Source of the DNA: Leptotrichia trevisanii DSM 22070
GTDB lineage: Bacteria > Fusobacteriota > Fusobacteriia > Fusobacteriales > Leptotrichiaceae
NCBI RefSeq assembly: GCF_000482505.1
Contig: NZ_KI519443.1
Span: forward strand, 62,001-126,000
Direction: 5' to 3'
Length of the DNA: 64,000 nucleotides
Position numbers and translations under genes: made by a program. Positions 35,825 to 39,729 of the stretch are shown piece after piece (the stretch's first letter is position 1; each line of letters opens with the position of its first letter). The notes under the pieces were generated by a model. That model was given only the letters and a program-made list of their open reading frames with translations. It was not told the origin of the DNA and did no database searches.

Positions 35825-36014
35825 CTCATCCTGAAATAGAACTCATTATTCTATTTCTATTTGGAAAATCAATCCAAAATCTAAATATATTGATGGAAAG
35901 GTGAGAAACAATGTTTCTACTTCTAATTTAATTACTAAAACAGTTTATCATATTTATTTTTATTTTGCAAGGAAATTTTGAAATTTTTTTCCATTTCTTG
36001 TCCTTGACATTTTA

Positions 36015-36182: not shown

Positions 36183-37124
36183 TTAATTTTTATGCCAATC
36201 ATTTGGAAAATCCATTCTCGATAAAATATCATTTATATTTACAATATTTTCTAATTTATCTTCCAAAGTTTTGATAATTAATTTTAATTTTTCTGTTAGT
36301 GCATCAAATTCTTCTTTAGAAAGACTAACTATAAAAAGTCAAGCATAAATCGTAAAGAGCTTTTGATTTCTGTTTGATGTCATATCACTAACTCTTTTTA
36401 TATTAACAGTTTCTCTCGAAGAAAATTCGTATAACCTTTCGTTATGGGCAGCAACATTTCTAAAATGAGAGCTAGCAACTAAATAAGTTCTTACAAATGA
36501 ATGAGTTATATTTGGAAGATTGCCATATTCTTCTTTATACAAATTTTTAAAATGATCGCAAATTTTATCATATACATTTTTATGTAAACAAGAATATAGT
36601 TTGCTAATATCTCCAAAAGTTAAATAGTGAATTATAATCCAAAAAGGAATATTATCTTTTGTAGTGTTATAATGTCTTATTATCATTTTTTCATTATCTT
36701 TTTTTATCTTTTTCAACGTATTCACCACCATTGAAATTTTAAGAATATTTGAATTTTTCTTTCCAGTATTGTAATTCTCTAAAAGAAGATACGAATTTTT
36801 TTTCAAAATTCCGTTTGTTTCAGAAAAATAATATGAAATAGCTGTTTTGAAAAAACTTTCAAGCAATGTCAAATTATCAAAAAATAAAATTCTCAATTCC
36901 CTATCAAAATCATGAAGACTTTTTAAATATTTAAATTTAAAATTTTCAATGTATTTATCTTTTCCTCTCAAATTTTTATTTTTTTCTAAAAAAGGAGCTT
37001 TATAAAAATTTATAATAGAATAGTAATTAAATCTTTTCAAAATAGAAATTGTATCTTTATCAATGCTCATTCTGCTTGATATAATTATTTCCTGTTCTTT
37101 GAACCTTTTAAATGGCTGATCCAC
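36183..37124 (-). pseudogene. Abi_2 (AbiD/AbiF-type) HEPN protein interrupted by one in-frame TGA
   Basis: The open frame codes 261 residues from GTG 37124 (AAGGAG six bases upstream) to TGA at 36341-36339. In the same frame it continues for 51 more codons to TAA at 36185-36183, ending SRMDFPNDWHKN, the expected Abi_2 C-terminus. The restored length, 313, is normal. Abi_2 proteins act in abortive infection. RNVAAHNERLY near residue 218 holds an R-x4-H HEPN RNase motif, and NYYSIINFYKAPF near 33 is typical of the family start. The TGA sits after the HEPN motif, so a shortened active protein is conceivable; decay, readthrough or sequencing error are alternatives. A structured RNA precedes it. 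Confidence 0.8.
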
Positions 37125-37149
37125 AAAAATCTCCTTTCCAAAATATCAG

Positions 37150-37248
37150 AAAAGCCCTCTAAACAGAGAGCCTTAATATTAATTTAAATTATAATTTCAG
37201 CCTATATCGACTTCTATTTAAGAAATCATTGATATAGTACGATCCACA
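37150..37248 (-). ncRNA. Structured leader RNA between promoter and Abi_2 gene
   Basis: About 100 nt from the promoter at 37282-37254 to a terminator-like hairpin. Main stem: CTATATC (plus 37202-37208) with GATATAG (37231-37237). Directly inside it, GACTTCT (37209-37215) pairs with AGAAATC (37221-37227) with one wobble, around a 5-base loop. The second hairpin, GCCCTCT (37154-37160) with AGAGAGC (37165-37171), has one G-U and is followed on the minus strand by TTTTCTGATATTTT. It ends 26 bases before the GTG start. The layout of promoter, RNA, attenuator and toxin is that of RNA-antitoxin systems; function is inferred. Confidence 0.55.
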
Positions 37249-37253
37249 TATTA

Positions 37254-37282
37254 TTTATAACACTTTTGTTACTTTTTGTCAA
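37254..37282 (-). promoter_or_regulatory. Promoter of the leader RNA and Abi_2 gene
   Basis: Minus-strand TTGACA (37282-37277), a 17-base spacer and TATAAA (37259-37254). It lies about 130 bp upstream of the Abi_2 start codon. Confidence 0.7.
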
Positions 37283-37407
37283 CCACATTTTTAAACTTTT
37301 TTTAATAAATCCCAAAACCTCCTCAATCCTACACTTCCTTTATTTTCTTTCTCTTCCAACCAAAAGTTCCCTATTTCAAAACCTAAAAAAATGAAAAATC
37401 ATAAAAA

Positions 37408-39729
37408 CTAAATTGTTCTAACAATACGAAAGCTGGTACGATAGAACCAAACCCATTCTCCATCCCTCCATACTCTTTCAGAAATAAATTCATCTCTACC
37501 ACAATTAAATATATTACAATTCTTTGTATCACTACGAAAAGACCCTCCTTTTAATCTATGGTTTGATACACTTTCCTCATACCTGTATGGTGTTTTTTCA
37601 GGTATATATGCATCACTAGATATATCATAACACCACTCCCAAATATTTCCACTACAATCGCAAATCCCTAATTGATTTGGTTTCTTTGTTCCTACATCAT
37701 GAGTACGATTTTCTGAATTACCATCATTCCAAGAAACTTCATCTATATTATTACTGCCTGAATACTCATAATTAAATGTCCCATCTTGTATTGCAATTTC
37801 TCCACCTCTTGCAAACCATTCCCATTCAACTTCTGTTGGCAATCTAAATCCTTCAGTTTTTCTAAAATCTGCTACATTTGGGTATTCTATTTTGCCATTT
37901 GATTGATGTATTCTTAATATACCTTCTTCTTTTCGGCTCAAGTCATAAACTGGTTTTAATCCATGTTTCTCACTCAATTTATTACAAAATTCCAAAGCAT
38001 CCCACCAAGATACGTTTTCAACTGGACGTCTTCCACCTTTAAATTCTGATGGATTATTCTCCATTACTTCCATCCACATATCTTGTGTTGTCTGATATTT
38101 ACAAACTTCTAAATTGCAAACTTCTCTTTCTTCATTAAAGAATGATGGCGTGTATTTTCCTCCATTTACTATAACCATATCTTTGAATGTCGGTCTTCCA
38201 GCTATTCTTTTACCATTTTTTATTTTTTGAGAAGCTGATTTTATTTTGAATTTTTTATAGCTCTTTTTCAAAACATCTATTTTATCAGATAAAATATTCG
38301 ATAAAGAATCTATACTTTTAGTTGCTTCTAATAAATTATTTGTTGTGATTTTCTTTTCTTCTTTATTTTCAGTTTCTAATATAAATTTATTTTCAACTGC
38401 GTTTTTAACGATTTCTTCTATATCAGCACCACAGTAGCCTTCTGTTTCTTCTGCCAGTTCTTTCAAGTTTATGTCGTCTGACATTTTTCCTCTTTTTTCA
38501 AGGTGAATTTCAAATATTCTTTCTCTTTCTTCCTCGTTAGGAAAATCTATAAAAAATACTTCATCAAATCGTCCTTTTCTTAGAAATTCTGGCGGGAAGG
38601 CTGTTATATCGTTGGCTGTTGCTACTACGAATACTGTGTTTTCTTTTTCCTGTAACCAAGTTAAAAATTGTCCAAATAGACGTTTTGTTATGTCGCTTGC
38701 TCCACCGTTTTGATCTATTCCTGCAAAGGCTTTTTCTATTTCATCTATCCATAAAATGCACGGACTTATTGATTCGGCTGTTTTTAGTGCGATTCTCATA
38801 TTATGCTCCGATTCACCAACGTATTTTCCCAAAAGTCTTCCTATATCCAGTCTTAATAATGGAACATTAAACAATCTTGCACTTGCTTTTGCTGCCAAAC
38901 TTTTACCACAGCCCGGCATTCCTACAAGCAGTACTCCTTTTGGCGTATCCACTCCAAATTTCTTGGCTTCATCCAGTCTTCTAAATACTTGTGCCTTAGA
39001 GCTTAGCCATTCTTTCAACCCTTCAAGCCCACCAATTTCTTCTATTTTTTCCTTAAAATCAATAATTTCCAAAATTGAAGACTTTTTAATTATTTGCCCC
39101 TTTTCACGAATGATTATTTGATTAGCACCTTTTGAAATAGCTCCATAATTTTCTTCTAATATCATATTTAAAATATGATCCAAATCTAACTTGGTTAAAC
39201 CTTTTAAAGAAATTGACAAATCTCCCAAATCATCCCAATATATTCGAGCATTATTTTTTTGAGCAAAATCTTGAATATATTGATTAATTGTTGTTTCATC
39301 CATAGTTTCAATATCAATTATACTTGTAAATTTTTCTAATCCTTTTGGTACATTTACATCTTCATCAACAATTATTATATTAAAATTATAATTTATATCA
39401 TTATACATTTTTTCAGCTATTTTTTTAATAAAAGCAATATTTCGTGCCTCTTTCATTTCTTCTTCCGTATTTTTTATCAATAAAAATACATTTGTTTTAA
39501 AACCAACCGAAAAAAGAATATTTAAAAAGCTATACAAATCTGCAACTTCATCACTTTTAACCTTGGTTTCAAAATTTACAGCTCCAAAGGCCCTATATTC
39601 AAAAATCGCCTTATTTTTATATTCTTTAGTCGCTTCTGTTACAATTGTGTCAACTTCCTTGTAATCTCCACTGTGTACCCAAATTATAGGTCTTCTTGCC
39701 CTTAAATACTTTGATAAATTTGTTTCCAT
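37408..39729 (-). CDS. Ycf46-like AAA+ ATPase fused to an FGE-sulfatase (C-type lectin fold) domain
   Basis: 773 residues in three parts. 1-220: RARRPIIWVHSGDYKEVD recalls the N-domain of Ycf46-type ATPases. 225-475: an AAA+ module with Walker A GMPGCGKS (270-277), Walker B ILWIDE (325-330) and FLRKGRFDEVF (382-392) carrying the arginine finger. About 515-772: a formylglycine-generating-enzyme-like domain with NVSWWDALEFCNKLS, FRLPTEVEWEWFARGG (628-643), GNIWEWCYD, GGSF (728-731) and the final SFRIVR. The canonical FGE cysteine pair right after GGS is absent; a CNIFNC pair occurs seven residues later, so ligand binding by the C-type-lectin fold is more likely than catalysis. It is the last gene after the WYL and glycine-zipper genes, 147 bp downstream. 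I know no characterised protein with this architecture. Confidence 0.85.
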   Translation of the reverse strand: METNLSKYLRARRPIIWVHSGDYKEVDTIVTEATKEYKNKAIFEYRAFGAVNFETKVKSDEVADLYSFLNILFSVGFKTNVFLLIKNTEEEMKEARNIAFIKKIAEKMYNDINYNFNIIIVDEDVNVPKGLEKFTSIIDIETMDETTINQYIQDFAQKNNARIYWDDLGDLSISLKGLTKLDLDHILNMILEENYGAISKGANQIIIREKGQIIKKSSILEIIDFKEKIEEIGGLEGLKEWLSSKAQVFRRLDEAKKFGVDTPKGVLLVGMPGCGKSLAAKASARLFNVPLLRLDIGRLLGKYVGESEHNMRIALKTAESISPCILWIDEIEKAFAGIDQNGGASDITKRLFGQFLTWLQEKENTVFVVATANDITAFPPEFLRKGRFDEVFFIDFPNEEERERIFEIHLEKRGKMSDDINLKELAEETEGYCGADIEEIVKNAVENKFILETENKEEKKITTNNLLEATKSIDSLSNILSDKIDVLKKSYKKFKIKSASQKIKNGKRIAGRPTFKDMVIVNGGKYTPSFFNEEREVCNLEVCKYQTTQDMWMEVMENNPSEFKGGRRPVENVSWWDALEFCNKLSEKHGLKPVYDLSRKEEGILRIHQSNGKIEYPNVADFRKTEGFRLPTEVEWEWFARGGEIAIQDGTFNYEYSGSNNIDEVSWNDGNSENRTHDVGTKKPNQLGICDCSGNIWEWCYDISSDAYIPEKTPYRYEESVSNHRLKGGSFRSDTKNCNIFNCGRDEFISERVWRDGEWVWFYRTSFRIVRTI

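Follow-up and report, generated by a model that had tools for sequence, protein, structure and literature searches.

Upstream of an Abi_2 gene in Leptotrichia trevisanii DSM 22070 lies a small structured RNA. With a probability of roughly four in five, this RNA forms one half of a two-part AbiF (AbiD/F, Abi_2) module, similar to RCd22-AbiF, in which RNA and protein serve as a toxin-antitoxin pair and in phage defence. It was found in a stretch of 64,000 nucleotides of contig NZ_KI519443.1, called the window in the following, to which all positions refer. The AbiF reading is backed by the order of the elements, covariation, conservation, linkage to Abi_2 and homology to PbAbiF. The features of such a module are present: a structured RNA that has a promoter and a terminator of its own lies directly upstream of abiF, and its hairpin covaries across homologues. 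Counted against this reading are the failure of the Rfam model RF03085 to match, a low score with our Bacillota model R2, the short U tract of the terminator and a truncated toxin. The window RNA probably keeps the toxin in check, but at this site the pair may have ceased to function, the toxin being incomplete.

Anatomy of the leader

The minus strand carries all elements, in the order promoter, bulged stem-loop, terminator-like hairpin and GTG start codon of the Abi_2/AbiD-F gene. The promoter consists of a −35 hexamer TTGACA (37277–37282; identical in the related genomes G010, G002 and G009) and, after a spacer of 17 nt, a −10 hexamer TATAAA (37254–37259); transcription would be expected to start near 37247. 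Only two sites of this form (here 37282–37254) occur in the 64 kb, compared with 0.40 expected, and the other one precedes infC. The single-stranded 5′ flank GAUCGUA (37238–37244) is conserved in Leptotrichiaceae leaders and found as AGUGAUCGUG in Bacillota leaders. It is followed by a two-part stem-loop (37202–37237), which is supported by folding, covariation and a covariance model. Its outer stem of 7 bp pairs CUAUAUC with GAUAUAG (37237–37231 with 37208–37202), and its inner stem, also of 7 bp, pairs GAUUUCU with AGAAGUC (37227–37221 with 37215–37209); a 3-nt 5′ bulge (AAU) and the loop UAAAU complete the structure. The 3′ flank GCUG (37198–37201) is conserved in relatives, mostly as GRCUG, and leads into an A/U-rich linker (37175–37197), the length of which varies in relatives.

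The terminator or attenuator hairpin (GGGCUUUUCU; 37151–37174) is the sole terminator-like hairpin within 2 kb (0.2 expected), and in relatives the hairpin is kept while its sequence is changed. As its U tract is short, the strength of termination is uncertain. Exactly 26 bases separate the end of its stem from the GTG at 37124, and the ribosome binding site AAGGAG lies at 37131–37136. A preliminary description of this DNA had placed the promoter and the stem of 7 bp plus 7 bp at just these sites, and the hairpin at the same distance of 26 bases from the start codon; all three were recovered. In folding analysis, the 59-nt stem-loop element reached −14.2 kcal/mol (z = −3.06), whereas the full 136-nt leader folded only modestly better than shuffled sequences (z = −1.9).

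Given this anatomy, one promoter would drive a short RNA of about 95–100 nt. Most transcripts would stop at the hairpin before the toxin gene, giving an excess of RNA, and read-through would yield a little Abi_2 mRNA. Judging from RCd22-AbiF and the PbAbiF-ncRNA complex, the bulged stem-loop would bind the Abi_2 HEPN dimer and block its RNase groove. Binding, neutralisation and trigger at the window module are what we infer here; the anatomy fits each step of RCd22-AbiF.

Covariation and covariance models in Leptotrichiaceae

Related genomes are designated by G-numbers and loci by L-numbers; R1, R2 and R3 are covariance models built in this work. Leptotrichiaceae Abi_2 genes (48–98% identity) are repeatedly preceded by a promoter, a GAUCGUAC-type hairpin and a terminator, and the sequence further upstream of these leaders is often different. 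Pairs were counted in eight distinct Leptotrichiaceae leaders, leaving out L013, the 3′ arm of which was misplaced by MAFFT. The two-helix structure pairs 84.9% of cells compared with 31–51% in slid registers, and 7 of the 14 pairs, in both helices and in one register, show compensatory changes, i.e., on both sides. The covariation score was 0.421 (0.224 ± 0.036 in shuffles) and 17 cells carried double changes; this number of cells, the paired percentage and the score were reached in none of 500 shuffles. The bare number of pairs with double changes showed no excess over shuffles (217/500).

Model R3 was built from the L007-type, L162, L011 and L012 leaders only and contains no window-type sequence. 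It ranked the window element first in the 64 kb (32 bits, E-value 1.2e-4; runner-up 12.6 bits) and also recovered L006, L005 and the lone RNA copies described below. The preliminary description had made its proposal depend on the stems being conserved and covarying upstream of Abi_2 homologues. Both were found, in the compensatory changes and in the match of this leave-out model, and comparison of sequences thereby confirms the window RNA as real. Model R1 matched none of 87 Bacillota, Fusobacteriota and phage loci and is, therefore, specific to Leptotrichiaceae. Other Abi_2 subfamilies of the same Leptotrichia genomes mostly have different hairpin leaders of their own.

Bacillota leaders and the Rfam abiF family

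A terminator-like site was present within 160 nt upstream of 53 of 56 Bacillota Abi_2 genes, compared with 61 of 268 control ORFs (Fisher p = 5e-25). The Lachnospiraceae-type hairpin, preceded by AGUGAUCGUG, is 97% paired, and in 9 of its 10 pairs the changes compensate each other. From these abiF-like leaders we built model R2 and applied it to 30 fusobacterial and phage loci. It gave ten weak matches with E-values up to 1.4, each located where predicted, upstream of Abi_2; several of them are near-identical sequences, and the ten represent about three or four independent cases. The best match reached 19.2 bits (E-value 0.007) and Leptotrichiaceae relatives 16.5–19.2 bits. The window copy itself scored 1.7 bits; thus, the link to Bacillota runs via intermediates of the L007 type, and the case for relating the Bacillota leaders to the window RNA appears moderate.

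Searching Rfam at gathering and at relaxed thresholds gave nothing credible at the window site. RF03085, the abiF RNA, likewise describes an asymmetrically bulged hairpin ahead of Abi_2 genes, but it did not match the window even at an E-value of 10 and matched in none of the Leptotrichia genomes (gathering cut-off 37 bits; positive control phiC2 37.6 bits). All 20 Bacillota and other Abi_2 leaders tested stayed below its gathering cut-off. Across the Bacillota loci L036–L107, the majority of Abi_2 leaders have hairpins, which fall into several subtypes and are missed by RF03085 at cut-off (20 loci tested). RF03085 covers part of such RNAs and the family looks too narrow, missing most RNAs of the AbiF kind seen here; our alignment and models are now on hand to find further abiF-type RNAs.

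The Abi_2 protein and its truncation

The gene downstream (36339–37124, minus strand, GTG start) encodes an Abi_2/AbiD-F HEPN protein of 261 amino acids with a truncated C-terminus, as judged from Pfam, PADLOC, comparison with an orthologue and a fold match. It matches Pfam PF07751 with an E-value of 3.5e-34 (119.2 bits; cutoff 25.6) and the PADLOC AbiD model with 2.6e-37. The HEPN motif R222-NVAA-H227 is invariant in our alignments A2 and A6, and the gene is, as first described, a HEPN Abi_2 with a GTG start. Abi_2 was the sole match in the Pfam search, which gave no ToxN-family hit.

At the same locus of the sister genome G010, the orthologue (L005) has 312 amino acids and is 98% identical over the shared part, so the window protein ends about 51 residues early; both proteins retain the motif RNVAAH. 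The earlier suggestion that Abi_2 would have to be “repaired” thus pointed to a real defect. Lacking these residues, the window protein may be a decaying toxin, and the locus probably represents a degenerating toxin with its antitoxin RNA preserved. An AlphaFold2 model had a mean pLDDT of 85.5, with residues 244–261 unreliable. The only solved relative by sequence was 8VZ6, the PbAbiF dimer bound to ncRNA (family profile E-value 8.5e-20), which was also the only fold match of the model (TM 0.67), at an identity of about 19%.

RNA copies with and without a toxin gene

R1 detected 17 copies of the RNA, distributed over 13 of 60 related genomes; 13 of these copies are in 9 of the 13 Leptotrichia genomes. 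Twelve copies directly precede Abi_2, which is full-length in eight cases (G000:C70, G006, G009, G010, G017, G019, G022, G026) and truncated in four (window, G002, G003, G011). After the remaining five, Abi_2 is absent or scrap, and two of these five have a stem-loop identical to that of the window. We saw no full-length Abi_2 of the window subfamily that lacked the RNA.

At the orthologous infC locus of G009 (L158, G009:C1), the RNA is followed by a DUF3644/PDC-S19 candidate defence gene and at that of G002 (L163, G002:C1) by a remnant of such a gene. Among the window, G002 and G009 copies at this locus, 0 of 55 nt of the stem-loop are changed, while the flanks differ by 8–9%; by chance, this would occur with about 0.5–1.5% in each case, the G002 and G009 cases not being independent. 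The lone copy of G008, beside restriction-type genes, has 3 of 55 nt of the stem-loop changed and a terminator of wholly new sequence, which yet retains a 12-bp hairpin and U8. In G012, the RNA and an Abi_2 scrap lie next to two small genes which, from their sequence, may be a RelBE-type system. A further, diverged copy with terminator lies before a Fic gene in G011 (L162, G011:C79:35395-35454).

We also observed that the infC-side locus swaps its cargo directly after the RNA terminator, carrying Abi_2 in the window and G010, DUF3644/PDC-S19 in G009 and the remnant in G002. In G011, the Fic gene is followed by the next copy of the RNA, the Abi_2 of which is broken, and Fic genes precede the RNA-Abi_2 module in G019 and G003 as well.

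An RNA that outlasts its toxin is what a toxin-antitoxin pair predicts, the toxin being lost first. This asymmetry is supportive only, as the larger mutational target of the gene predicts the same. Tentatively, and as a rather unlikely extension, the Leptotrichia abiF-type RNA could be a stand-alone small-RNA gene under selection without its toxin. It would act as a solitary antitoxin that protects against Abi_2 from mobile elements (anti-addiction) or tunes it, and the promoter-RNA-terminator unit could come before other genes, such as Fic in G011 and DUF3644/PDC-S19 in G009. The RNAs without a toxin are the new lead, the pairing of RNA and AbiF as such being already known; they make it possible to test directly whether anti-addiction is what RNA antitoxins are kept for.

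Alternative explanations

That the window module is wholly non-functional and its RNA kept only through recent loss is possible, if doubtful, and would be compatible with the AbiF reading as the origin of the module. Truncated Abi_2 genes in the window, G002, G003 and G011, absent or scrap genes at five other places and the larger decay target of a 940-bp gene compared with a 60-nt RNA would all be expected from such a decaying remnant. However, the stem-loop is identical where Abi_2 is gone and the flanks have diverged, it outlasted the terminator sequence in G008, and the HEPN motif of the window Abi_2 is intact. Action in cis only, with stem-loop and terminator regulating read-through into Abi_2 as a riboswitch- or protein-sensing leader, appears quite unlikely. 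The order of promoter, structured leader, terminator and gene fits it and RCd22 acts in cis too (PMC12373285), but RCd22 also acts in trans. In addition, RNA, promoter and terminator persist without Abi_2 in G002, G009, G012 (scrap) and G008, and in G008 the terminator sequence was replaced, with hairpin and U tract kept and the stem-loop hardly changed.

We consider it very improbable that termination is controlled by translation of a short ORF (ATG TGG ATC GTA CTA TAT CAA TGA, MWIVLYQ), as in an amino-acid attenuator. This ORF is readable at about 37249–37226, and there is a weak match to the Rfam Phe_leader (21.3 bits, cutoff 55, E-value 1.8), but that score is at chance level and the stems covary while the ORF is not conserved: the L007 type has no such ATG, and in L006 the frame is another. 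Hardly conceivable is, finally, a chance arrangement of promoter, terminator and fortuitous hairpin in an AT-rich intergenic region. Promoter-like sites are common in the region and the folding advantage of the 136-nt leader is modest, but both helices show compensatory changes, the independent R3 model matches, the stem-loop is unchanged between diverged flanks, and the same arrangement precedes Bacillota Abi_2 genes. We retain the AbiF module as the best explanation.

Comparison with known systems

RNA partners of AbiF-type proteins, which the preliminary description had mentioned, are real: RCd22 is an RNA antitoxin and attenuator of AbiF in C. difficile (PMC12373285). The locus comprises a SigA promoter, the abiF motif, a terminator and abiF, and the RNA neutralises the toxin both in cis and in trans. 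This effect is lost on mutations that break the structure and kept on those that preserve the stem; structure counts for more than stem sequence (PMC12373285). Most transcripts end before the toxin gene, and the RNA binds the HEPN dimer (PMC12373285). RCd22-AbiFCd of prophage phi027 (Saunier et al., 2025, PMC12373285) resembles the window module in its promoter, RNA of about 100 nt, Rho-independent terminator and Abi_2/AbiF HEPN gene, and the structured motif is near the 5′ end of the transcript, as in the Leptotrichia RNA. However, RCd22 has two abiF motifs and matches RF03085, whereas a single motif and no such match characterise the Leptotrichia RNA, which differs further in its 7-bp inner stem, the 3-nt 5′ bulge, the lack of a 6-nt 3′ internal loop and the conserved GAUCGUA flank.

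In the PbAbiF-AbiFr complex 8VZ6 (Zilberzwige-Tal et al., as described in PMC12737573 and PMC12373285), a HEPN dimer binds an ncRNA. Its likeness to the window concerns protein sequence and fold, the proteins alone being compared, and the window protein is without the C-terminal segment. The preliminary description had further seen the layout of a type III system. The order promoter, RNA, terminator and toxin stands, and ToxIN likewise unites an RNA antitoxin gene, a terminator and an RNase toxin in one operon. The classical ToxIN class does not: such systems have tandem repeats and ToxN, whereas the window has one motif and a HEPN Abi_2, and no tandem direct repeats, by which ToxIN, CptIN and TenpIN are recognised, were found in 37100–37420. 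A classical type III (ToxIN) system is thus excluded in favour of an AbiF/RCd22-like one.

Cas13 is proposed to descend from AbiF proteins and crRNA from the RNA partners of AbiF, and Leptotrichia is the genus of several Cas13a enzymes. Cas13a (type VI-A CRISPR) is likewise a HEPN RNase with an RNA partner. It was found in 4 of the 13 Leptotrichia genomes, including G010 with the full-length window orthologue, and not in the window genome. In G010, R1 found nothing else at E ≤ 5, and no similarity to CRISPR repeats was detected. This genome has two Cas13a genes beside the full-length AbiF orthologue, i.e., the proposed descendant and the ancestor type in one cell. The link of AbiD/F to the origins of Cas13, also mentioned beforehand, is documented (PMC12165695, PMC12737573). 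Our results extend the RNA-AbiF pairing to Leptotrichia with covariation evidence; a literature search, the scope of which excluded the primary AbiF-to-Cas13 paper, found no description of an abiF-type RNA in this genus, and an earlier mention is possible.

Neighbouring elements

At 37408–39729 on the minus strand, an AAA ATPase is fused to an FGE-sulfatase (C-type-lectin-like) domain, the C-terminal end of which varies strongly between strains. A diversity-generating retroelement was rejected for this gene, as a search of the genome gave no template repeat of its 3′ end; reverse transcriptase genes are present. Upstream of infC-rpmI-rplT, a weak match to the Rfam L20 leader (35830–35928, minus strand; 24.8 bits, cutoff 58.7, E-value 0.05) is possibly a diverged autoregulatory leader. 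Upstream of Abi_2 at L015 (G016), the loop sequence AAUUCUxxGGAGGC occurs twice, with the second occurrence within the terminator hairpin, and this leader could be a two-motif RNA as in RCd22.
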